Source: Flavobacterium oreochromis (GTDB lineage Bacteria; Bacteroidota; Bacteroidia; Flavobacteriales; Flavobacteriaceae). From it: 64,000 nt of DNA. The stretch covers positions 3,354,001-3,418,000 of the forward strand of contig NZ_CP067377.1 in NCBI RefSeq assembly GCF_019565455.1. The letters run 5' to 3'. Positions 7,500 to 19,500 of this stretch are shown here, piece by piece (position 1 is the first letter of the stretch; every line of letters starts with the position of its first letter). The notes under the pieces were generated by a model. That model was given only the letters and a program-made list of their open reading frames with translations, had not been told where the DNA came from and did not search any database. The position numbers and the translations under genes were made by a program.

Positions 7500-8015
7500 T
7501 TAAATGTATAAATCTTGTTCGTTTTGCAAATGTACACCTTGCGCAAAAATAGCATACATAAAAAGAATAAAGACGCCCATAATAGCGTGAGCAATAACCA
7601 TTACTAAAAACGGAAAATCTTCTATTGACACCACCGCCCAAACGATGATTAACAAAGGATAAACAATCAAATTAAATAAATAAAAATACTTTAAGTTGGT
7701 CATTCCTTGCACAGTAAACAAACGCTCCTGTTTAAAGGTACTAAAAACACCACTCAGCACCCAAAAAAACAAACCATAAAGGCCTATTCCTAAAACCATT
7801 TCTGTTACATAGTTAAAAGTAAACTCCGTTCCCAATAAAAGAGGAAAATCCGAAAAAGGTAAATTAATCGCAAAACGTTTCGCATCAAGCATTTGCAAAT
7901 TGGGTAATTTAAACAAGGTACTCACTAACACAAATAACGAAGTAAGTAGATACCCAACTGCCACTATTCGTACTATATAAAAAAGAAATTGGGCTATTAT
8001 TTTTACTAATTTCAT
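7500..8015 (-). CDS. DUF2975 integral membrane protein
   Basis: A 171-residue protein with four predicted membrane spans: residues about 8-32, 69-91, 108-130 and 138-160. The family features are the second half, with LKYFYLFNLIVYPLLIIVW, and the C-terminal IFAQGVHLQNEQDLYI, which is typical of DUF2975 (xxGxxLxxEQDLxI). It is the first gene of a two-gene unit with the XRE regulator three bases downstream. The biochemical role is not established; a membrane sensor or partner for the regulator is an inference from the conserved pairing. Confidence 0.82.
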   Translation of the reverse strand: MKLVKIIAQFLFYIVRIVAVGYLLTSLFVLVSTLFKLPNLQMLDAKRFAINLPFSDFPLLLGTEFTFNYVTEMVLGIGLYGLFFWVLSGVFSTFKQERLFTVQGMTNLKYFYLFNLIVYPLLIIVWAVVSIEDFPFLVMVIAHAIMGVFILFMYAIFAQGVHLQNEQDLYI

Positions 8016-8151
8016 ATTCGATTTATTTTAATTAACACTACAAATATAATAATTAATTAAAATAAAACGATAATTTTTTAAAATATTTACATAACAAAAT
8101 TTCATTTGAAAATATTATTTATATTTATAAAAAAATCAAATTCAAGGGAAT

Positions 8152-8511
8152 ATGTTAAAAATTGATAATATTGAAATAACCGATGAAAAGTTATCTGGTA
8201 ATTGTTGTGGAAAAGAGAAAAACTACAAATGTTATAACTTAACTGAATTTAATGCAAAAAATTCAAAAATAGAAATTGACAACGCTATAATAGCTGTTAG
8301 TTATTTTCCAGACAAGAATATGTCCGAAAAACTTTTCTTTGCAGAATATTTTACAGATTACAACAATTTCAAGAAAATTGACAAAGTTTTTCCAAATTTC
8401 CATACTAAAATAATACCTTTAAAAGGGGATGATTTAAAACAAATAGATAAAATAATACAAGATTTAGAAAAAACTTTTTTAAAAAAATATTTTTGGATAT
8501 TAAAAAAATAA
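8152..8511 (+). CDS. Small cytoplasmic hypothetical protein
   Basis: A 119-residue protein with no signal peptide and no membrane segment. It begins MLKIDNIEITDEKLSGNCCGKE, with a CC pair near residues 18-19 and another Cys at residue 27, and ends in a lysine-rich helix. No family was recognised. It precedes the trp operon, and the trp promoter overlaps its last codons. Low GC and no frameshift. The length, the ATG and an absence of overlapping alternatives support it as a real gene, but with modest certainty. Confidence 0.6.
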   Translation: MLKIDNIEITDEKLSGNCCGKEKNYKCYNLTEFNAKNSKIEIDNAIIAVSYFPDKNMSEKLFFAEYFTDYNNFKKIDKVFPNFHTKIIPLKGDDLKQIDKIIQDLEKTFLKKYFWILKK

Positions 8512-8524
8512 TTCTATACATTTG
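8492..8524 (+). promoter_or_regulatory. Putative trp operon promoter
   Basis: TTTG (8492-8495), a 21-base spacer and TACATTTG (8517-8524) match the Bacteroidota consensus TTTG...TAnnTTTG with proper spacing. They lie just upstream of the leader peptide. The -33 element falls inside the 3' end of the preceding gene. Confidence 0.6.
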
Positions 8525-8551
8525 CAACATACAAAACGTACACATAAAAAA

Positions 8552-8608
8552 ATGCAAAATATTTTAAACAATACTTGGTGGTGGAACAACTTACGTCAAA
8601 CGTCGTGA
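8552..8608 (+). CDS. trpL: trp operon leader peptide with three consecutive Trp codons
   Basis: An 18-codon reading frame, MQNILNNTWWWNNLRQTS, starts at ATG 8552 and stops at TGA 8606-8608. Codons 9-11 (8576-8584) are TGG TGG TGG. Its position between the promoter and a terminator hairpin upstream of trpE makes it a transcription attenuation leader: scarce charged tRNA-Trp would stall the ribosome on these codons. The stop codon lies inside a segment that can pair with the terminator region. No other protein-level function is expected. Confidence 0.88.
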   Translation: MQNILNNTWWWNNLRQTS

Positions 8609-8680
8609 GCGGTACCAGCTATGTAAAGTTTAAATAAACATATACAATAAAGGCTTGTCAATCACGACAAGCCTTTTTTT
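8602..8680 (+). terminator. trp attenuator: terminator hairpin and competing antiterminator
   Basis: The terminator stem is AAGGCTTGTC (8650-8659) with GACAAGCCTT (8666-8675), a 6-base loop and a T-run to 8680. A competing pairing exists: GTCGTGA at 8602-8608, the end of trpL including its stop, is fully complementary to TCACGAC at 8662-8668 in the loop and 3' arm. A ribosome stalled at the Trp codons would leave 8602-8608 free and block the terminator. A ribosome reaching the stop would cover it and allow termination. The mechanism is inferred from these pairings and the known logic of trp attenuation. Confidence 0.82.
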
Positions 8681-8715
8681 ATTGATTAAATTTTAAAAAA
8701 TTGAAACAAACATCT

Positions 8716-10116
8716 ATGAACACATACATTTTAAAAACATCTTTTAAACAAGTCCTTGCCGACACGATTACGCCGGTTAGTATTTATTTAAAACTTAGGG
8801 ATAAATTCCCGCATAGTATCTTACTGGAAAGTAATGACTATCATACTAACGATAATAGCTTCTCGTACATTTGTTGTAACCCTATTGCGAGTATCAAGGT
8901 GGAAAACGAAACGATTACTTCTTCTTTTCCTGACGGAACTTTGGTTGTAAAACCTATTACTGATAAAAAAGAAGTTATTTTGGCTATCCAAGATTTTAAA
9001 GATAGTTTTCAAACAGATAAAAGTAATTTCAAATTTATTACTAATGGACTTTTTGGTTTTACTACTTACGATGCCGTTCGCTATTTTGAAAAAACAGCCA
9101 TTACCCCTAAAGAAGGAAATTTGAATTTACCCGATTTGCAATATAGTGTTTATCAAAATGTGATTGCCATCAATCACTTTAAAAATGAGGCTTATCTATT
9201 TTGTCACAACACAACTGGCATCGATAATTTAGCCGAAATTGAACAATACATCCAATCTAAAACTTTTGCTTCTTATAGCTTTACTCGCGAGGGAGCCATA
9301 AACTCTAACTTAACGGATGCGCTTTTTAAAGAGCAAGTAGCACAAGCCAAAAAACATTGTGCACGTGGCGATGTATTCCAGTTGGTTTTATCCCGTCGGT
9401 TTTCACAAAAATTTAAAGGCGACGAATTTAATGTGTATCGCGCTTTACGAAGCATAAACCCCTCTCCTTACCTATTTTATTTTGATTATGGTAATTTCAA
9501 AATTATGGGTTCGTCTCCCGAGGCACAAATTATCATTCAAAATCGCAAAGCCGAAATTCACCCAATAGCAGGGACTTTTAAACGTACAGGTGACGATGAA
9601 AAAGATGCGCAATTAGCCAAAGAACTTTCGGAAGATCCTAAAGAAAATAGCGAACACGTAATGCTGGTTGATTTAGCACGTAACGATTTGAGTCGCAACG
9701 GTCATCAAGTACAAGTGGAAAAATACAGAGAAGTGCAGTATTTCTCACACGTAATTCATTTGGTTTCCAAAGTTACCAGTCAGTTGCACGAATCAGCAAC
9801 CACGATGCAAGTCGTAGCCGATACTTTTCCTGCAGGTACGCTTTCGGGTGCTCCTAAACACAAAGCCTTACAGTTAATTGACGATATTGAAAACATCAAC
9901 CGTTCGTTTTACGGAGGTGCCATAGGTGTAATGGATTTTGAAGGTAATTTTAACCACGCCATAATGATTCGAACATTTATCAGTCTGAATCACGAACTGC
10001 ATTTCCAAGCCGGAGCAGGAATTGTAAATGATTCGGTGGAAGAAAATGAAAAAAATGAGGTGTTTAACAAATTAGCAGCGTTGAATAAGGCGTTGGAGTT
10101 GGCGGAAACGATATAA
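8716..10116 (+). CDS. trpE: Anthranilate synthase component I
   Basis: The 466-residue large subunit makes anthranilate from chorismate, using ammonia supplied by TrpG. The C-terminal chorismate-binding domain is clear: RGDVFQLVLSRRFSQKF, PSPYLFYFDYGNFKIMGSSPE, PIAGTFKRTGDD, SEDPKENSEHVMLVDLARND, and near the end AGAGIVNDSVEENEKNE. The N-terminal region ends a regulatory domain of the usual size. ATG 8716 is preferred over an in-frame TTG at 8701, since NTYILKTSFKQ is the normal family start. It is the first structural gene after the attenuator. Its base composition is richer in G and C than that of the genes after 16.5 kb. Confidence 0.96.
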   Translation: MNTYILKTSFKQVLADTITPVSIYLKLRDKFPHSILLESNDYHTNDNSFSYICCNPIASIKVENETITSSFPDGTLVVKPITDKKEVILAIQDFKDSFQTDKSNFKFITNGLFGFTTYDAVRYFEKTAITPKEGNLNLPDLQYSVYQNVIAINHFKNEAYLFCHNTTGIDNLAEIEQYIQSKTFASYSFTREGAINSNLTDALFKEQVAQAKKHCARGDVFQLVLSRRFSQKFKGDEFNVYRALRSINPSPYLFYFDYGNFKIMGSSPEAQIIIQNRKAEIHPIAGTFKRTGDDEKDAQLAKELSEDPKENSEHVMLVDLARNDLSRNGHQVQVEKYREVQYFSHVIHLVSKVTSQLHESATTMQVVADTFPAGTLSGAPKHKALQLIDDIENINRSFYGGAIGVMDFEGNFNHAIMIRTFISLNHELHFQAGAGIVNDSVEENEKNEVFNKLAALNKALELAETI

Positions 10117-10144
10117 GCCTCCCAAACCCTCCAAAGGAGGGCTT
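10117..10144 (+). repeat. REP-like palindromic element between trpE and trpG
   Basis: It starts directly after the trpE stop codon. CCCTCC-AAA-GGAGGG forms a hairpin within the 28-base element. It belongs to the same family as the elements at 15534-15563 and 15661-15690 and faces an inverted, more divergent relative in the trpG coding sequence. Confidence 0.75.
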
Positions 10145-10168
10145 AAGAGCAACTAAAAATAAAAGATT

Positions 10169-10783
10169 ATGAATACACAACATACAAATATTCCCCCTTT
10201 GGGGGCTAGGGGGCGAATCCTAGTCATAGATAATTACGATAGTTTTACTTACAACCTAGTGCATTACTTGGAGGATCTAAATTGTGAAGTAACGGTATAT
10301 CGCAACGATGAGTTCGAATTAGAAGAAGTTGAAAAGTTCGATAAAATTCTTCTTTCACCTGGCCCTGGTATTCCTGATGAGGCGGGTTTACTAAAAAAAG
10401 TAATTGAAAAATATGCTCCTACAAAAAGCATTCTTGGGGTTTGTTTAGGTCAACAAGCAATAGGAGAAGTTTTTGGTGGGCATCTAACCAATTTAGAAAA
10501 AGTATATCACGGGGTAGCCACAAAAGTTACATTAACTCATCCTGACGAGGTACTTTTTAGAGATCTACCTCAAGAATTTGAAGTGGGTCGTTACCATTCG
10601 TGGGTGGTAGCAAATGAAAACTTTCCAGCGGTTTTGGAGGTTACTTCGGTAGATGAAAACGGACAAATAATGTCGTTAAAGCATAAAACGTATGAAGTGC
10701 GTGGGGTGCAATACCATCCTGAAAGTGTGTTGACTCCGTTGGGTAAAAAAATATTGGAGAATTGGGTGAATTGGCGTGGGTAA
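10169..10783 (+). CDS. trpG: Anthranilate synthase component II, glutamine amidotransferase
   Basis: A 204-residue class I glutamine amidotransferase that hydrolyses glutamine and feeds ammonia to TrpE. The catalytic Cys92 lies in GVCLGQQAIGE and the His183/Glu185 pair in YHPESVL; the oxyanion motif is LSPGPG. Family members normally start directly with a sequence like MKILVIDNYDSFTYN. Here that is preceded by MNTQHTNIPPLGARGR, part of which is translated from a GC-rich repeat element at 10191-10214. The start at ATG 10169 fits the operon spacing, and no later ATG precedes ILVIDNYDSF, so the repeat really appears to be translated. Confidence 0.95.
   Translation: MNTQHTNIPPLGARGRILVIDNYDSFTYNLVHYLEDLNCEVTVYRNDEFELEEVEKFDKILLSPGPGIPDEAGLLKKVIEKYAPTKSILGVCLGQQAIGEVFGGHLTNLEKVYHGVATKVTLTHPDEVLFRDLPQEFEVGRYHSWVVANENFPAVLEVTSVDENGQIMSLKHKTYEVRGVQYHPESVLTPLGKKILENWVNWRG
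10191..10214 (+). repeat. GC-rich palindromic element inside the trpG coding region
   Basis: CCCCCTTTGGGGG (10193-10205) followed by CTAGGGGG. It lies in frame at the 5' end of trpG and encodes PPLGARG. It resembles, in inverted orientation, the element before the trpG start. Confidence 0.65.
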
Positions 10784-10785
10784 TA

Positions 10786-11056
10786 GGTACACAGAGTCAC
10801 ACAAAGTCCTTTCACAAAGTCAAAGAAGTTTTTAAACATTGTGAAACGTTGTGAAAAACATTGTGAAACATTGTGCTCCTTGTAGGTACACAGAGTCACA
10901 CAAAGTCAAAGAAGTTTTTAAACATTGTGAAACGTTGTGAAAAACGTTGTGAAACATTGTGCTCCTTGTAGGTACACAGAGTCACACAAAGTCAAAGAAG
11001 TTTTTAAACATTGTGAAACGCTGTGAAAACGTTGTGAAACATTGTGCTCCTTGTAG
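10786..11056 (+). repeat. Three tandem repeats (99, 86 and 86 bp) between trpG and trpD
   Basis: Units start at 10786, 10885 and 10971 with GGTACACAGAGTCACAC. Each continues through AAAGTCAAAGAAGTTTTTAA and then several copies of (A)ACATTGTGAAACGTTGTG, and ends GTGCTCCTTGTA. The first unit has an extra 13 bases. Within a unit CACAAAGT and ATTGTG/CTTTGTG-like segments are partly self-complementary, so the transcript may fold. The AAAGTCAxAGAAGT...TTTTAAA...TTGTGAAAC core is shared with the array before trpF, so the two are one repeat family. The rest of the gap to trpD (11057-11093) is AT-rich and featureless. Confidence 0.85.
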
Positions 11057-11093
11057 CATCACAAAACAAAAAAATTTAATTAAATAAAATCCA

Positions 11094-12089
11094 ATGAAAT
11101 CAACACTTAATAAATTATTCCAACACGAAACGCTGTCACAAGCTGAGGCGTACCAAATATTAGTTAACATCTCACACGGACAATACAATCCGAGCCAAAT
11201 TGCCTCGTTTCTAACCGTATTTATGATGCGCCCTATTACCATTAACGAGCTGGCAGGTTTCCGTCAAGCATTATTAGAACTATGTATTCCTGTCAATTTC
11301 TCGGCTTATGAAGCTATAGATTTATGCGGAACAGGCGGCGATGGTAAAGACACGTTTAATATTTCAACCTTAGCTTCGTTTATTTCGGCGGGTGCAGGTG
11401 TTAAAGTGGCTAAACACGGAAACTACGGCGTTTCTTCTATCTCTGGATCGAGTAACGTAATGGAAAACTTAGGCGTAAAATTTAGCAATGACTCTGATTA
11501 TCTTACAAAATGCATCGAAGAAGCAAATATTGCCATTTTGCACGCACCGCTTTTCCACCCGGCGATGAAGCAAGTAGCTCCTATCCGTAAAGAATTAGGT
11601 GTAAAAACCTTCTTCAATATGTTAGGTCCTATGGTGAATCCGAGTTTCCCTAAACACCAAATGGTGGGTGTCTTCAATTTAGAATTAGCACGTATGTATG
11701 CGTATTTGTACCAAAATACCGAAACCAATTTTACCATTTTACACGGATTAGATGGTTATGACGAAATATCGTTAACGAATGATACTAAAGTCATTTCTCG
11801 CCAAAAAGAACAAATCCTAAAACCCGAAGATTTTGAGGTGACGAAACTAAATGCAATCGATATTGCTGGAGGAACTACTGTAGAAGAATCGGCTAAGTTA
11901 TTCTATGAAATTCTATCAGGCAACGGAAGCACAGCACAAAATAATGTAGTTTGTGCAAACGCCGCACTTGCCATTGCTACGGTAAATAACTGCTCGATAA
12001 ATGAAGGCTTTGCCCTAGCAAAAGAAAGTCTTGAAAGCGGAAAGGCATTGGAGAAGCTGAAAAAGTTACAATTATTGAGTGAAAAGTGA
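11094..12089 (+). CDS. trpD: Anthranilate phosphoribosyltransferase
   Basis: The 331-residue enzyme joins anthranilate and phosphoribosyl pyrophosphate. The hallmark glycine-rich PRPP site is CGTGGDGKDTFNISTLASF, followed by KHGNYGVSSISGSSNVMENLG, the anthranilate site FFNMLGPMVNPSFPKHQMVGV, and HGLDGYDEISL. It is a stand-alone enzyme not fused to TrpG. The last codons (LLSEK) run into a low-complexity AAAGTGAAGAGTAAAGAG tract that continues past the stop, so the extreme C-terminus may have been shaped by a repeat. Confidence 0.96.
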   Translation: MKSTLNKLFQHETLSQAEAYQILVNISHGQYNPSQIASFLTVFMMRPITINELAGFRQALLELCIPVNFSAYEAIDLCGTGGDGKDTFNISTLASFISAGAGVKVAKHGNYGVSSISGSSNVMENLGVKFSNDSDYLTKCIEEANIAILHAPLFHPAMKQVAPIRKELGVKTFFNMLGPMVNPSFPKHQMVGVFNLELARMYAYLYQNTETNFTILHGLDGYDEISLTNDTKVISRQKEQILKPEDFEVTKLNAIDIAGGTTVEESAKLFYEILSGNGSTAQNNVVCANAALAIATVNNCSINEGFALAKESLESGKALEKLKKLQLLSEK

Positions 12090-12149
12090 AAAGTGAAGAG
12101 TAAAGAGCTAGTAGTATTAAATGTAATGTTCATTATTCTGCACTCTCCA

Positions 12150-12192
12150 AACAACTAATCACTAATTACTTTTCACTAATCACTAATCACTT
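12150..12192 (+). repeat. Low-complexity CTAATCACTAAT repeat between trpD and trpC
   Basis: Several copies of AATCACTAAT with ACTTTTCACT. The reverse complement of this tract appears at the 3' end of trpF (about 14213-14245), so it is a dispersed repeat and not a unique spacer. No terminator or promoter is visible. Confidence 0.55.
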
Positions 12193-12199
12193 AATAAAA

Positions 12200-12985
12200 A
12201 TGACCATCCTAGACAAAATAATAGCAGATAAAAAAAGAGAAGTCGAGCTAAAAAAGCGTTTGATTTCGGCGAGTCAATTAGAAGGATTTCCTTTATTTGG
12301 TTCTGCGACAAAATCATTAAGTAAAAATTTAAAAAACAATGTATTGGGCATTATCGCCGAGCATAAGCGTCGGTCGCCATCAAAACCAGTGATTAATCAA
12401 AGTCTTTCGGTCGATGAAGTCGCAATGGGATATCAAAATGCAGGCGCTTCAGGAATTTCAGTTTTAACCGATGGAAAATATTTTGGAGGTTCACTCGATG
12501 ATTTACTTTTAGCAAAATCCGCTACTTCTATCCCTATCCTTCGCAAAGAATTTATCATTGACGAATACCAATTGGTAGAAGCCAAAGCTTATGGCGCTGA
12601 TGTAATTTTATTAATCGCAGCCGTATTAAGTCGGGAAGAAATAAAACATTTATCAGAGTTCGCCCAATCTCTAGCCTTAGAGGTTTTATTAGAAGTGCAT
12701 AATGAGGAAGAACTAGAGAAATCAATTATGCCAAGTTTAGATATGATAGGCGTAAATAATCGTAATTTAAAAACCTTTGAGGTGAGTTTGGATTTCAGTA
12801 AAGAACTTGCTCCAAAAATCCCGAACGAATTCGTAAAAGTATCAGAAAGCGGTATCAGCCACATTGATGCTATTAAAGAATTACAACCTTATGGTTATCA
12901 AGGATTTTTAATAGGCGAAAACTTTATGAAAACGGATAATCCAGAACTAGCATTGAAAGAATTTATGAATCAATATGAACAATAA
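12200..12985 (+). CDS. trpC: Indole-3-glycerol phosphate synthase
   Basis: A 261-residue TIM-barrel enzyme that closes the indole ring of CdRP. Visible family elements: MTILDKIIADKKREVELKK at the N-terminus, the catalytic IIAEHKRRSPSKP (Glu and Lys of the first strand), GASGISVLTDGKYFGGSLDDL, ILRKEFIIDEYQ (catalytic Lys), EVLLEVHNEEEL, IGVNNRNLKTF and SESGI near the end. It is separate from TrpF, unlike the enterobacterial fusion. Its stop codon abuts the first unit of a five-copy repeat array. Confidence 0.96.
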   Translation: MTILDKIIADKKREVELKKRLISASQLEGFPLFGSATKSLSKNLKNNVLGIIAEHKRRSPSKPVINQSLSVDEVAMGYQNAGASGISVLTDGKYFGGSLDDLLLAKSATSIPILRKEFIIDEYQLVEAKAYGADVILLIAAVLSREEIKHLSEFAQSLALEVLLEVHNEEELEKSIMPSLDMIGVNNRNLKTFEVSLDFSKELAPKIPNEFVKVSESGISHIDAIKELQPYGYQGFLIGENFMKTDNPELALKEFMNQYEQ

Positions 12986-13593
12986 AATATCAGTTACACA
13001 ATGTCACACCAAGTAAAGCACAAAGTCACAGAAGTATTTTAAAAAACTTTGTGAAACATCGTGTTAAACTTTGTGTTCAAAAAAAGAAATGGCAATAAAA
13101 ATCAAAATATCAGTTACACAACATCACACCAAGTTACAGAAGTATTTTAAAAAACTTTGTGAAACATCGTGTTAAACTTTGAGAAACTTTGTGTTCCAAA
13201 AAAAGAAATGGCAATAAAAATCAAAATATGAGTTCCACAATGTCACACTAAGTAAAGCACAAAGTCACAGAAGTATTTTAAAAAACTTTGTGAAACATCG
13301 TGTTAAACTTTGTGTTCCAAAAAAGAAATGGCAATAAAAATCAAAATATCAGTTACACAACGTCACACCAAGTTACAGAAGTATTTTAAAAAACTTTGTG
13401 AAACATCGTGTTAAACTTTGAGAAACTTTGTGTTCCAAAAAAAGAAATGGCAATAAAAATCAAAATATCAGTTACACAATGTCACACCAAGTAAAGCACA
13501 AAGTCACAGAAGTATTTTAAAAAACTTTGTGAAACATCGTGTTAAACTTTGAGAAACTTTGTGTTCCAAAAAAAAGAAATGGCAATAAAAATA
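12984..13593 (+). repeat. Five tandem repeats (about 120 bp) containing copies of the trpF start
   Basis: Units begin with AAAATAT at 12984, 13104, 13223, 13343 and 13462, with lengths 120, 119, 120, 119 and 132. They alternate between a version with GTAAAGCACAAAGTCAC and one with AAGTTACAG and an extra GAGAAACTTTG; the last is a hybrid. Each unit ends with AAAGAAATGGCAATAAAA and a few more codons, the same bases as the trpF ribosome-binding region and first codons. Decoy ATGs lie at 13089, 13208, 13328 and 13447 and open frames of 28, 7, 28 and 15 codons beginning MAIKIKI. The array probably grew by unequal duplication that included the gene's 5' end. Confidence 0.92.
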
Positions 13594-14235
13594 AAAATAT
13601 GCGGAATGAAATACCCTGAAAACATTCAGGAGATCGCTTCATTGCAACCCGATTATCTCGGATTTATTTTCTATGAGAAAAGTGCTCGAAACGTTGAAAT
13701 CAATACACTTCCAACACTTCCAGAAAACATTCAAAAAGTGGGTGTTTTTGTAAATGCTACAGTAGAAGAAATCAAAAGTAAAATAAATCAGTACGATTTA
13801 GATGTCCTTCAATTACACGGAAATGAATCGGTTGCCTTTTGCAAAGAAGTACAAGCTTACGTGGAAACCCTTCCGAAAAAGATATCCTTAATCAAAGTCT
13901 TTTCGGTGGGTGAAACTTTCGATTTTAGCACCTTACTTCCGTATGAAGCAGTTTGCGATTACTTCTTATTTGATACCAAAGGAAAACAACACGGAGGTAA
14001 CGGAATAACTTTCGATTGGAAACTCTTAGACAACTACCCCTCTGAAAAACCTTTCTTTTTGAGTGGAGGCATCGGAATAAATGAATTAGAAGAAGTAAAA
14101 CAGTTCTTAAAAAGCACAAAAGCACGATGGTGCCACGCATTAGATATCAATAGCCAATTAGAAATTGAACCAGGGTTGAAATACTTTCCAGCTTGCAAGA
14201 AATTTATTGAGGAGTTAGTGATTAGTGAAGAGTGA
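13579..14235 (+). CDS. trpF: Phosphoribosylanthranilate isomerase
   Basis: A 218-residue TIM-barrel isomerase (PRA to CdRP). It starts MAIKIKICGMKYPENI, in which Cys8 of KICGM is the catalytic base. GFIFYEKSARNV, VGVFVNAT, LQLHGNE, the catalytic Asp in FLFDTKGKQHGGNG, and FLSGGIG follow. ATG 13579 gives the family start; upstream in-frame TTG codons belong to the repeat array. The five preceding repeat units each carry a copy of this start, so initiating ribosomes face four decoys. The last residues (EELVISEE) are encoded by a dispersed repeat that runs on past the stop. Confidence 0.95.
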   Translation: MAIKIKICGMKYPENIQEIASLQPDYLGFIFYEKSARNVEINTLPTLPENIQKVGVFVNATVEEIKSKINQYDLDVLQLHGNESVAFCKEVQAYVETLPKKISLIKVFSVGETFDFSTLLPYEAVCDYFLFDTKGKQHGGNGITFDWKLLDNYPSEKPFFLSGGIGINELEEVKQFLKSTKARWCHALDINSQLEIEPGLKYFPACKKFIEELVISEE

Positions 14236-14330
14236 AAAGTAATTAGATGTGTTCAGTATTCAGTTATCAGTGTTCAGTTAGAAAAACTTTAAACTTGAAA
14301 CCTGAAACTTGAAACCTGAAACTTGAAACA
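14213..14330 (+). repeat. Low-complexity repeats from the trpF 3' end to trpB
   Basis: AGTGATTAGTGAAGAGTGAA (from about 14217) overlaps the trpF stop. Then come TTCAGT-type units (14251-14279) and three AAACTTGAAACCTG-type units (14291-14329). The array ends about 20 bases before the trpB ATG. No terminator is seen. Confidence 0.6.
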
Positions 14331-14350
14331 AAAAAATATAAAAATATAAA

Positions 14351-15532
14351 ATGAAATATAACGTTAACGAAAAAGGATTTTACGGCGAATTTGGAGGGGC
14401 ATTTGTTCCTGAAATGTTGTATCCTAATGTGGAAGAATTACGCCAACAGTATTTAAATATCATTGAAAGTGAAGAATTTAAAGCCGAGTATATAGCTTTA
14501 TTGCAAGAGTATGTAGGCCGACCAACGCCCTTATATTTAGCGCAAAATTTATCCAAACAATTCGGAGCCAAGATTTATTTAAAAAGAGAAGATTTGTGTC
14601 ATACAGGCGCACATAAAGTTAATAATACCATTGGTCAAATTTTACTTGCCAAGCGTTTAGGCAAACATCGAATCATTGCCGAAACAGGTGCTGGTCAACA
14701 CGGTGTGGCAACGGCAACCGTATGTGCTTTGATGGGCTTGCAATGTATTGTGTATATGGGCGAAATCGACATCAAGCGTCAAGCACCTAACGTAGCTCGT
14801 ATGAAAATGCTAGGTGCCGAAGTTAGACCTGCAACCTCGGGCTCAAAAACCTTAAAAGATGCTACCAACGAAGCCATACGCGACTGGATTAACAATCCGT
14901 TAGACACTTTTTACATCATAGGATCTGTAGTAGGACCTCATCCCTACCCTGATATGGTAGCGCGTTTTCAAAGTATTATTTCCGAAGAAATAAAAAAACA
15001 ATTACTCGAAAAAGAAGGTCGCGAAACCCCAGATTATGTGATTGCTTGTGTAGGCGGAGGTAGTAATGCCGCTGGAGCATTTTACCATTTTTTAGATAGT
15101 GAAAAAGTACAATTAATCGCCGTAGAAGCCGCTGGAAAAGGAATTCATTCAGGAGAAAGCGCAGCGACTTCGGTATTAGGGAAAGAAGGTATCATTCACG
15201 GAAGCAAAACCTTGTTGATGCAAACCGAAGACGGACAAATTACAGAACCTTATTCTATCTCAGCGGGACTCGATTACCCAGGCGTAGGGCCTTTACACGC
15301 GCATTTATTCAAAAGCGGACGCGCCACTTTTATGTCGGCTACCGATGACGAAGCAATGCAAGCTGGTCTAAACCTTTGTAAACAAGAAGGTATTATCCCC
15401 GCCATAGAAAGTTCGCACGCTTTGGCGGTACTCAACCAGAAACAATTTAAACCCGAAGATATTGTGGTGATTAACCTCTCTGGACGAGGCGACAAAGATT
15501 TGAATACGTATATTGATTATTTTAAACTTTAA
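14351..15532 (+). CDS. trpB: Tryptophan synthase beta chain
   Basis: A 393-residue PLP enzyme joining indole and serine. [21 protein letters not shown] is the standard N-terminus. Lys89 in [12 protein letters not shown] should hold PLP, Glu111 in AETGAGQHG is the catalytic acid, and the phosphate loop is [10 protein letters not shown]. The monovalent-cation and C-terminal region contains [14 protein letters not shown] and [11 protein letters not shown]. It pairs with TrpA, encoded 81 bases downstream, in the alpha2-beta2 complex with an indole tunnel. A 30-base palindromic element begins two bases after its stop. Confidence 0.97.
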
Positions 15533-15533
15533 A

Positions 15534-15563
15534 GCCTCCCCAACCCCTCCAAAGGAGGGGCTT
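15534..15563 (+). repeat. REP-like element between trpB and trpA (left arm of a 30-bp inverted pair)
   Basis: GCCTCCCCAACCCCTCC (15534-15550) followed by AAAGGAGGGGCTT. It contains the hairpin CCCCTCC-AAA-GGAGGGG. The whole 30 bases are the exact reverse complement of 15661-15690 in the trpA coding sequence, on the other side of the trpA start codon. Confidence 0.9.
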
Positions 15564-15613
15564 AACTGTATGCAACAATTCATCTAAATAAATATCATAT
15601 ATAAATTAAAACA

Positions 15614-16414
15614 ATGAATAGAATAAACAATCTTTTTACATCAAAAATAAACGCAACAACAAGCCCCTCCTTTGGAGGGGTTGGGGAGGCTGTTCTTTCC
15701 CTTTATTTTACCGCAGGTTTCCCCAACCTAAACGACACCGTAACCATTATCGAGACCTTAGAAAAAAACGGAGTCGATATGATCGAAATAGGTTTGCCTT
15801 TTAGCGACCCATTGGCCGATGGTCCCACCATACAAGAAAGTTCGACCATTGCACTAGAAAACGGAATGACTGCTGCCCTACTTTTCGAGCAATTAAAAAA
15901 CATTCGAAAATCCGTTTCTATCCCTTTATTAATTATGGGATATTTTAACCCAATGATGCAATATGGTGTCGAAAAATTTTGTCAGAAATGTGCCGAAATA
16001 GGTATCGATGGTTTAATTATCCCCGACCTTCCTCTGGACATTTACGAAGCCGAATACAAAAGCATTTTCGAAAAATATAAGATAACCAACATCTTTTTGA
16101 TTACCCCACAAACAACCGAAACCCGCATTCGCCAGATTGATGCCTTATCTAACGGATTTATCTATATGGTAAGTACCGCGAGTGTTACAGGAAATCAAAC
16201 AGGATTTGGCACCGCCCAAATGGAGTATTTTGAGCGCATTGCTGCTATGAATTTAAAGAACCCACAAATTGTTGGTTTTGGTATTTCAGACAAGGAAACG
16301 TTTCAACAAGCGACTACGTACCAAAAGGGCGCGATTATAGGTAGTGCGTTTATTAAGTATTTGAGAGTGAATGGAGTGAATGGGATAGATGATTTTGTGA
16401 AATTGTTGCGATGA
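15614..16414 (+). CDS. trpA: Tryptophan synthase alpha chain with repeat-derived N-terminal insertion
   Basis: A 266-residue TIM-barrel lyase that splits indole-3-glycerol phosphate. The catalytic residues are Glu58 (EIGLPFSDP) and Asp69 (PLADGPTIQ), against positions 49 and 60 in the Salmonella enzyme. The nine-residue offset matches an N-terminal insertion: residues 16-26, SPSFGGVGEA and flank, are translated from a 30-base palindromic repeat at 15661-15690. The barrel then starts normally with LSLYFTAGFPNLNDT. The C-terminus has VSTASVTG, VGFGIS and GAIIGSAFIKYL. It is the last gene of the operon and is followed by a terminator. Confidence 0.96.
   Translation: MNRINNLFTSKINATTSPSFGGVGEAVLSLYFTAGFPNLNDTVTIIETLEKNGVDMIEIGLPFSDPLADGPTIQESSTIALENGMTAALLFEQLKNIRKSVSIPLLIMGYFNPMMQYGVEKFCQKCAEIGIDGLIIPDLPLDIYEAEYKSIFEKYKITNIFLITPQTTETRIRQIDALSNGFIYMVSTASVTGNQTGFGTAQMEYFERIAAMNLKNPQIVGFGISDKETFQQATTYQKGAIIGSAFIKYLRVNGVNGIDDFVKLLR
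15661..15690 (+). repeat. REP-like element inside trpA (right arm of the 30-bp inverted pair)
   Basis: A 30-base exact reverse complement of 15534-15563. It lies in frame near the trpA 5' end, adds the peptide SPSFGGVGEA, and contains the local hairpin CCCCTCC-TTT-GGAGGGG. Confidence 0.9.
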
Positions 16415-16421
16415 AGGAAAT

Positions 16422-16448
16422 GCCTGAATTTTTTTCAGGCTTTTTTTT
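16422..16448 (+). terminator. Intrinsic terminator of the trp operon
   Basis: Stem GCCTGAA (16422-16428) with TTCAGGC (16434-16440), a five-T loop, and a T-run from 16441. It begins eight bases after the trpA stop. The following 16449-16579 is AT-rich spacer between convergent genes. Confidence 0.88.
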
Positions 16449-16579
16449 ATAAAATATACTTTTAACAGCTAATTACTAAATATTCTCCTTGAATTTATAA
16501 TAAAAAAACTTCCAAAAACATCAACAAAACACTTATTCTATAAGCATTATAACAAACACTTTGTATTTATAAACTTATT

Positions 16580-19500
16580 TTATATAACCTCAATCCTTAA
16601 ATTAGGATTTCCAAACAAGTGCATTGCTAGTCTCCCTTCTGCTACATAATATGCGTTTGAATTTGACTCTTTGTATCTTGCTAATTCATTATTGGCATAA
16701 AAAACTGCTTCACTTATATAAACACCTGTTTTAAATTTTTTAATAAACTCATCAAACCAAAACTCGGGGATAGTAACTTCTAATCCCCAACATGGAGCAA
16801 TTACACTCTTATATCCTAGTTCTATAATTTCATGCACCAACGAAATAACGCTATTAGAGAAAAAGTTTTTATCCATTTTACCAGAATGACAAACAAATAA
16901 TATTGCTACATCACCCTTGCCAAACAATACCTTATTCGAGATTATCGCACTGTAGTTTTCTTGACTCTCATAGATAGCTTTAAACGATGACCCATTTAAT
17001 TCTCCATGAGCAAAGAAAATATTTATATTTGAATCTATTGACTCTAAATCGATACTAGTTATTGTTTTTACATTATTTACTTCTAAAACAGGTTTTAATT
17101 TCTCATAACCATAACTTATTGCAGGGTCTGCTGCTTCTAATGGAACCCAACAAGTAGAAGTAAAATCTTTCTTTATTATAAATTCTTTATTATTTTCAAT
17201 AAACCACTCTAATAAAATTACATTAGTTAATTTATATTTTGAACCTAGAAAATCTCCATTGTCTACTATCAAATTAATTGGATAATTAATTAAATCTAAA
17301 CTTGTTGAAATTAAAATTTCATCATATTCAAAGTTTAACTCCAAATTTGTAAAAGATAAGTCATTTAGGAGTTTGTTATAAGCACTTTCTTGTTCACTAA
17401 TATCAAAATAATTCTTAGAATTAAAGTAAAAATTTTCTTTATTCTTGAGCCAACTATTCATCTTATCAGCATTCCATTCTCTTGGCTTTCTTATCAAAAA
17501 ATCTCCGCCAGAATTTATCAATAAATAGTAAACTTCTTTATTTGATTCAAACAAATAAACATAAAGCTGATTTTCTTTTATCTTAATTTTACTTTTGATA
17601 AATTCAAAATAATTATCAATAAAATTTAAATCACTATTATCCTGTATAAATGGTACTAGAGTATTTTTTTCAAAATATGAGTTCTTATAAATTAGTCTAA
17701 TGTCATTTGCAATTAAACCAGATAACAAAATGCTTTCAATGTCATTGTTTGTTATTCCTTGTTGAATAAGATTATGCATATCTAATTCGAGGTTTTGATT
17801 TTCAAAAATATAATCAGAAAATGATATAGTATTTAATGATTTTTTTATGGCTTCTATAAAATTATTTTTCAGATTTTCATCAGAAAAATGTTTTTCTTTT
17901 ATTGGTAAGAAATATTCTTGGTCTACTTTACTTTCAAGTAACTCAATGAATTTATCTACATCAAATTTTTCGTTTACAAAACCATCATTAATTAACCTCT
18001 TGATATTGTAAAAATAATTTAACCAAGGTAAAATCCCCTTTTCTTTATACTTAAGAATTTTGTTAACACTTTTGTTAAAATAAGTAAAAGAATCTTCAAT
18101 TAACGAATCCCTATTTTTGATATTTGCATTTAAAAATGCTGATAAGTAATAACTTAAATGAATTTTTTGTTCATCATAGTCTTTAAGTTTGATTGATTTT
18201 AGAAAGTTAAAAACACTTTTAATTAAATGGGTTGAATAAATATTTCTTGAGAATTTTAAGATATTAAAAAACACTTCAACAATTTCTGAATAAGTTAAGT
18301 TTTCTTCAATCGATAATGAAGTTATATATAAACATCCATAAACAGTTGCATCAAATATATTTTTCTGTTGTTCAGAACATAAAAATAGAATTCCCCAACC
18401 TCTATAAACTTTTTTTTCTTGAATTGAAATTAAGAGAATTTCTTCTGAAAGGTTTCTGGCTGTTTGATAATGATTGTTAAAATTCAATGCAGATATAATA
18501 TTGTTAACAGCACTATAAAATTCAAAATGTAAAAAATATTTTTCCTTAAAATTTTTTATAATACTCAATGATAATAAAAAATTTTGAAAATCATCAGGAG
18601 AATATCTGGTAATTGTAACAGTAGATAATATTTTAAGATTAAAAGTTATTATCTGTTTTTCTTCAATTTTGGTAAAAATTGAATCTGATTTAAATTCCGA
18701 AATTCTAATTAAATTTTTATCCCCAATTAATTTATCCATTAATTTCATAACATTATCACTTTCAAATTTTACGGTATTAAAAGTTTTTGTACTCTTAATT
18801 TTTATACCTCCGAGTTCATTCAGTGTATTAGTAAAATAATGAATTAAATGGGCAAATCCTCTTATATTAATTTTTTGAAAAGACCTTGAAATTTCAAATC
18901 TATTCAAGCTAAAGTCATATTTACAGTGAGCTAATAAATTAAAAATATCCGTTAAATAATATTGAATGGATTTATCAATTTTTTTAATTTCATTATCATT
19001 ATAAGAATTATAATATTGCTCTTTTAACACAGAATTCAGTTGATGAATTTTAGCTTCAATATTTTCATTTTCATCCACATAATCACAAACATCAATATAT
19101 AATTGCATTAAAGTTGAATTAGGGAAAACAGAAACCTCTTTCCAATATAGTTTATTTAATATTTCAACAACTGGTAAAGGATTATATTGAAAATTAATAA
19201 AAACATCATTAAACTCATCCTCATTTTCATAGTATCTAAATTTATTGTAGATAGAAGTTTTTTGATTTTTAGAATTATAATTTATCCTTGCTCTTTGAAA
19301 TTCCCCAGTTACAAAATAATTTTTCAGTAATCTCTTATCAAAGACACTTATTCCATTTAGAAACATTCCTGAAAAAAGAGAATAGTTTATTAACACTATT
19401 GGCAAAATACTTTTGATATCATTTGATTCCTTTAAAAATTCTATTTTTCCTGGAATCCTCTCAATGTGTTCATTTATATAATTTAGCGAAATAGCAATCT

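Follow-up and report, generated by a model that had tools for sequence, protein, structure and literature searches.

Tandem copies of the trpF start region between trpC and trpF of Flavobacterium oreochromis, and their probable origin in a dispersed inverted-repeat element

The window analysed here, a stretch of 64,000 nucleotides from the Flavobacterium oreochromis genome (assembled as a single contig of 3,540,003 bases), contains a trp operon in which trpC (indole-3-glycerol phosphate synthase; 12200-12985, forward strand) is separated by a spacer of 593 nt from trpF (phosphoribosylanthranilate isomerase; 13579-14235, forward strand). The trpF open frame is free of defects, and its family match is strong (E 1.6e-44), yet falls under the equivalog cut-offs; the nearest named TrpF, from F. 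columnare, stands at 65%, and the 90% cluster of this protein has 10 member sequences. An earlier note had described five head-to-tail units between the two genes, at 12984-13593, and re-reading of the coordinates and units confirmed them. All five lie on the forward strand. Units 1 (12984-13103) and 3 (13223-13342) are of form A, 120 bp long, with 11-12 bp missing from the 3′ arm; units 2 (13104-13222) and 4 (13343-13461) are of form B, 119 bp long, with 12 bp missing from the 5′ arm; unit 5 (13462-13593) is full length, at 132 bp, and ends in the real start region of trpF. At these boundaries unit 1 starts within the trpC stop codon (TAA, 12983-12985).

Tandem Repeats Finder (TRF) reports the array with a period of 239 bp (97% match, score 1101), that is, as two-unit blocks repeated. 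A TRF survey of the window and 40 stretches of 20 kb (period at least 40, score at least 80), in which genes were predicted ORFs of at least 90 aa rather than annotation and the start scored for trpF was a TTG at 13549, found no other array holding a predicted ORF start, or within 30 nt of one, in these 864,000 bases of the genome. By this measure the array is well outside chance expectation. The TTG itself lies within unit 5, in frame with trpF, and would lengthen TrpF by 10 residues.

Each unit closes with a copy of the trpF start, and the four start-like ATGs placed ahead of the gene by the earlier note (13089, 13208, 13328 and 13447) do stand in a context nearly identical to that of trpF, the best second-start match in the window reaching 23 of 24 bases. 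The frames that they open, all on the forward strand, begin with MAIKIKI and stop inside the array: 28 codons in the first (13089-13175; MAIKIKISVTQHHTKLQKYFKKLCETSC), seven in the second (13208-13231; MAIKIKI), 28 in the third (13328-13414) and 15 in the fourth (13447-13494), whose stop is separated from the trpF ATG by 84 nt. The units have diverged at other positions, yet the ATGs and their A-rich lead-ins are intact in all five, as would also be expected from selection for decoys; the changes among units are too few to test this. Codon 5 is ATC in the decoys versus ATA in trpF, and in four relatives with MA-type starts it is ATC in three and ATT in one. Over other loci of the genus with isoleucine at this position there are 12 ATA, 11 ATT and 5 ATC codons. 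Because ATA is thus commoner than ATC across the genus, the idea that codon 5 proves an older trpF state in the decoys was dropped, and this codon does not appear to settle the direction of copying between decoys and gene.

The core of each unit is a dispersed CACAAAGT/ACTTTGTG inverted-repeat element, which in unit 5 occupies 13470-13567 of the forward strand (boundaries set by hand). In 11 aligned single copies, each arm consists of CACAAAGT-like octamers spaced about 11 bp from one another, a pattern that the opposite arm mirrors, and the whole element measures about 89-103 bp. The unit core recurs outside the trp operon of the same genome, at two loci (L006 and L007) and in the gyrA region. 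Across the genus, the 132-nt unit was matched in 98 of 398 genomes, own included (E ≤ 1e-3), in a search that scored two candidate stretches per genome and so missed many copies; a few genomes, for example G148, G028, G247 and G295, match only at the A-rich end of the unit. Within the trp operon, a related element forms another array (86 bp × 2.8; 10813-11056, forward strand) between trpG and trpD, which contains no gene start. By eye, all six junctions of the operon (E-G, G-D, D-C, C-F, F-B and B-A; 10117-15613) show repeat-like sequence of at least three sorts: the CACAAAGT element, 7-bp runs and CCTCCAAAGGAGG-type inverted repeats. A sub-threshold Rfam match to MIR7533 at 15533-15691 on the reverse strand (47.7 bits against a gathering score of 230) comes perhaps from an intergenic inverted repeat there.

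The same junction was read in relatives. A search of 150 genomes of the genus, own included and one per species, found trpF in 102, which leaves 101 other trpC-trpF junctions, all read with script-chosen start codons. In 29 of these the genes overlap or abut, 10 have gaps of 1-10 nt, 29 of 31-100 nt and 33 of 101-229 nt (39 at 10 nt or less; 62 at 31-229 nt). In 27 of the 59 gaps of at least 45 nt there is an inverted repeat that surpasses 98 of 100 shuffles, in the remaining 32 there is none at this level, and several repeat families can be recognised in the gaps by eye. These gaps are a place of repeat build-up. In these 59 testable gaps, the other 42 being shorter, no second trpF start was found (best partial match 17 of 24 bases). 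At L021, L057, L058, L063, L122 and others, a GGGAGGGCTGGG-type repeat reaches the trpF start, and the nearest start picked by the script is a GTG. Outside the genus, a Paludibacter MAG (L048) has a trpC-trpF gap of 719 nt, apparently with an inserted gene.

Related elements also stand ahead of gyrA. The gyrA set comprises 20 rows, three of them second fetches, and thus 17 distinct loci with at least two arms; in 12 of these the projected 3′ end of the element lies 3-4 nt ahead of the gyrA ATG, and in the other five at 9, 10, 12, 12 and 61 nt. Since the end of the element adjoins the next start, a duplication that reaches slightly past the element copies the start codon with it, and a dispersed element abutting the next start is the simplest account of the decoys, one that calls for no selection. 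In one genome (G120; L096/L206), a four-unit array of the element stands before gyrA with an A-rich ATG in each of its four linkers, none being the gyrA start, and ATG-bearing arrays may thus recur. Each G120 linker holds a short frame, and by eye the changes between linkers are mostly at third positions. For start capture at gyrA itself the indications are weak: in the orthologous L086, L099 and L084, the inner-flank value was equalled in 19, 24 and 32 of 1000 shuffles; for L088 the figures were 40 and 387 of 1000, and in L087 and L208 capture was not indicated at all. Given this mixed outcome, decayed copies of the gyrA start are not used here to argue that decoys decay in general. The gyrB-gyrA junction of relatives also holds, by eye, various inserted frames.

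The trp array carries traces of how it may have arisen. The heptamer AAAATAT occurs on the forward strand at both breakpoints, on the left at 12984-12990 in the trpC stop region and on the right at 13594-13600 in codons 6-8 of trpF; this microhomology could be incidental, and it would be enough for slippage or mispairing. Together with the dimer periodicity, it supports the origin by slippage or unequal exchange that the earlier note had put forward. That note had also seen two alternating versions of the unit, which stands, and a hybrid in the last unit, which is better read otherwise. The stretch absent from form B occurs in units 1, 3 and 5 and the stretch absent from form A in units 2, 4 and 5, so that both are found together only in unit 5. 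Both are also found in copies from other species, among which L084, L086, L088 and L090 have GTAAAGCACAAAGTCAC, or a sequence close to it, together with the longer 3′ arm. Because copies of other species hold both stretches, the comparison suggests that unit 5 is the ancestral full-length form and that A and B are deletion derivatives whose dimer was duplicated.

We therefore regard an expansion of repeats, with the decoy ATGs as passengers, as the probable explanation of the locus as a whole. A dispersed intergenic inverted-repeat element would have come to lie between trpC and trpF, ending a few bases ahead of the trpF ATG, and AAAATAT at the trpC end would have mispaired with AAAATAT in codons 6-8 of trpF, duplicating the whole segment in tandem. 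Since that segment runs from the end of trpC into codons 6-8 of trpF, each new copy would carry along the trpF start and first codons. Deletions of 11-12 bp, in the 3′ arm of some copies and the 5′ arm of others, would then have given forms A and B, and the A-B pair would have been duplicated again to yield A-B-A-B-full length. The decoy ATGs would be passengers that probably receive some initiation, and trpF, which retains its own complete start, most likely works independently, so that the effect of the array on TrpF would be weak or nil.

The main alternative is that of the earlier note, in which ribosomes start at the decoys and stop before trpF, and the number of copies tunes TrpF relative to TrpC or couples translation along the mRNA. 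What speaks for it is that the context of the trpF start has been copied almost base for base. Furthermore, initiation in Flavobacterium johnsoniae is described as independent of Shine-Dalgarno pairing and favoured by adenines at -3, -6, -12 and -13 and by low structure (PMC6847099). All five starts of the array, decoys and trpF alike, share an A at -6 and runs of 6-8 A, with G at -3 and bases other than A at -12 and -13; of the favoured adenines, then, only -6 is common to all of them, which counts against the decoys. The predicted mean unpaired probability over -20 to +15 is 0.71, 0.56, 0.68 and 0.61 for the four decoys and 0.68 for trpF, against a local background of 0.49 (sd 0.09), and by this measure the accessibility of the decoy ATGs seems broadly similar to that of the trpF ATG. 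The stricter probability that -3 to +5 is wholly unpaired is uneven, at 0.35, 0.02, 0.30 and 0.12 for the decoys and 0.18 for trpF. Because their context almost equals that of trpF and they are predicted to be accessible, some initiation at the decoys is plausible, and least so at decoy 2.

An influence of such initiation on TrpF is a different matter. The decoy frames neither overlap nor approach the trpF start, their stops lying 84-403 nt before its ATG, a distance too long for ordinary stop-start coupling. To our knowledge there is no fixed ratio between TrpF and TrpC, which are consecutive enzymes. The trpF start is single at the 59 testable junctions among the 101 others of the genus, and an element that abuts start codons in dispersed positions explains the decoys without selection. 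We thus consider it improbable that the array is a device for setting TrpF output, an effect for which the analysis gave no support; most likely it reflects how such repeats expand, rather than being a proven means of control.

Another reading, slightly less probable still, takes the element as an RNA hairpin that stabilises or processes the intercistronic mRNA, with each copy adding to the effect. The arms do pair in register, with 70% of cells paired versus 25-52% when slid (a result favoured by the use of unit 5 as the source of the structure), and units 1, 3 and 5 are predicted to fold at -17.3, -17.3 and -19.0 kcal/mol. Against shuffled sequences, however, these three units have z values of -1.34, -1.20 and -1.00, and units 2 and 4, in which the predicted hairpin is weak or absent, have +1.39 and +1.26, so that the folds are not clearly better than those of shuffles. 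A double change occurs in one of the 28 pairs of the element, a number that 491 of 500 shuffles reach, and in one of the 13 pairs of the RNAalifold model. The proposal of a conserved hairpin was given up on these grounds, and the weak or absent hairpin of two units and the lack of covariation in the element's pairing tell against a regulatory role for the array as well. Since the palindrome has a clear register, shows no covariation and folds not clearly better than shuffles, it fits a putative DNA-level element rather than a selected RNA structure.

It is also unlikely, a shade more so than the hairpin, that the decoy frames act against polarity by holding ribosomes on the 593-nt spacer and so shielding trpF-trpB-trpA from transcription termination: the frames cover 246 of the 593 nt (87 + 24 + 87 + 48), which leaves the greater part uncovered, and by eye comparable sets of repeated frames are absent at other operon junctions. 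Assemblers fail at repeats, yet a wrong copy number or a false array is very improbable in a single 3.54-Mb contig whose units have private differences and two indel forms. A trp leader or riboswitch was set aside as well: no Rfam family matches 12984-13593 (a search of 8000-17000 gave three matches up to E 1, two of them below their gathering scores), and the decoy peptides contain no tryptophan. Known leader control of trp genes likewise places short upstream frames ahead of a trp gene (RF01692), whereas these frames lie inside the operon. A Bacteroid-trp leader of that family (77.2 bits) is present at 8532-8659, ahead of trpE, with a leader frame that has three consecutive Trp codons.

Tandem duplications that arise through mispairing of short repeats are familiar from VNTR-like loci. 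The array shares with these its head-to-tail units, its breakpoint microhomology and its higher-order dimer, and differs in that the unit includes the start region of a gene. Heptamer repeats of the TAACTGA type, from Beggiatoaceae, Cyanobacteria and some Bacteroidetes, are likewise intergenic and often close to start codons, and are tandem 7-bp direct units with no inverted arms (PMC4679880), compared with a unit of about 120 bp that includes a start codon here. Tandem TAACTGA is found in none of the five units, and a single reverse-strand copy (TCAGTTA) occurs in units 1, 2, 4 and 5. Between trpF and trpB, at 14248-14330, runs that resemble the TAACTGA repeats of PMC4679880 can be seen by eye (TCAGTTA/TCAGTGT and AAACTTG/AAACCTG). 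A CRISPR-like array elsewhere in the genome (L259, 7156-7850) has a 66-bp period, about 10 copies and, by eye, a repeat of about 36 nt.

In manner of life, the nearest known kind is the REP sequences with their RAYT genes (TnpA-REP), which are likewise dispersed intergenic inverted repeats beside a small gene with a nuclease-like product (PMC6006769). The present element, also a dispersed intergenic palindrome, differs in its length of about 89-103 bp, its arms of octamer runs, its lack of a constant GT[AG]G foot and the gene that it flanks, GxxExxY. With boundaries set by hand, a GTAG start is found in two of the 11 aligned elements, and the other starts are GGTA, GTAA, GTAT, GGTG, GAGC and AGTT. 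For Y1_Tnp (PF01797), the genome has one match above the cut-off (L302) and one below it among the pair L302 and L303; at these two loci the best score of an element arm is 13 each, within the shuffles (maxima 20 and 16), compared with 29 (maximum 18) at the GxxExxY locus described below. With the foot in two of 11 elements and no element arm at the Y1_Tnp loci, assignment to the RAYT systems was rejected. The sole Y1_Tnp gene above the cut-off, that of L302, seems by eye to be flanked by an inverted repeat of its own, with GTGCCCACAA.

At the gyrB-gyrA junction of this genome (L225; G000:C1, about 2464314), a GxxExxY gene (TIGR04256; Pfam PF13366, PDDEXK_3, E 1.2e-40) has the element of the trp array on either side, and downstream of the gene two copies match the trp region with E values of 1.5e-4 and 9.5e-4. 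The other GxxExxY gene of this genome (L226; G000:C1:1281233-1281577, reverse strand) is flanked by another repeat, with GCCACAGATGCACAGATG on one side and its inverted copy on the other. Genes of this family were found in 121 of 150 genomes of the genus, own included, with up to 12 matches each. Thirty-two loci were taken (the two own and the 30 best-scoring), of which 30 had usable flanks, L236 and L240 being left out. The flanks are inverted copies of each other in 21 of the 30 (a level attained by no more than 2 of 200 shuffles; median z of 8.3), with nine failing; some of the loci are orthologues, so that independent events are fewer than 21. Control ORFs of 100-260 aa, drawn from the own-genome sample only, gave a comparable result in 3 of 150 cases (at most 1 of 100 shuffles), or in 14 of 150 at 5 of 100 or fewer, with a median z of -0.1. 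An initial comparison of matched with mismatched flanks (medians 19.75 and 10.5, with only 8 of 30 loci above the 95th percentile of mismatched) was replaced by these shuffles and controls, since one and the same repeat family was present in many of the mismatched pairs.

At gyrA an element arm and a GxxExxY gene tend to be found together: among L175-204 one has both and 29 neither; among L205-224, which are own and hand-picked loci selected partly for element hits, six have both and 14 neither; and among 14 element-picked loci 12 have both and two the arm only, three places being shared between two of the three sets. A tentative model would be that inverted-repeat cassettes of GxxExxY genes, whose products are PD-(D/E)XK-like, colonise operon junctions in Flavobacterium much as REPs do with RAYTs. 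The GxxExxY protein or a partner would cut and spread them; a copy inserted between a stop and the next start would have its A-rich end become an initiation region, and gene-less copies, as between trpC and trpF, would expand into arrays of start sites. If the cassette reading holds, the trp copies would be gene-less members of that family; that the GxxExxY protein moves the repeats is our inference. In the literature searched, mostly at the level of titles and abstracts and with few subscription journals, no function was described for the GxxExxY family, and neither these repeats nor start capture nor a GxxExxY partner of the repeats was reported.

By itself the array is a modest finding with a broader lead, and the GxxExxY result, although a side product, may be the weightier of the two. 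The locus points to a simple way for a translation start to become multiplied upstream of itself, namely when an intergenic repeat that abuts the start codon is duplicated. The array would also serve as a natural multi-start leader for testing Shine-Dalgarno-independent initiation in Bacteroidota. Finally, the inverted repeats that flank GxxExxY genes point to a possible mobile cassette, and provide a lead on a common protein family.
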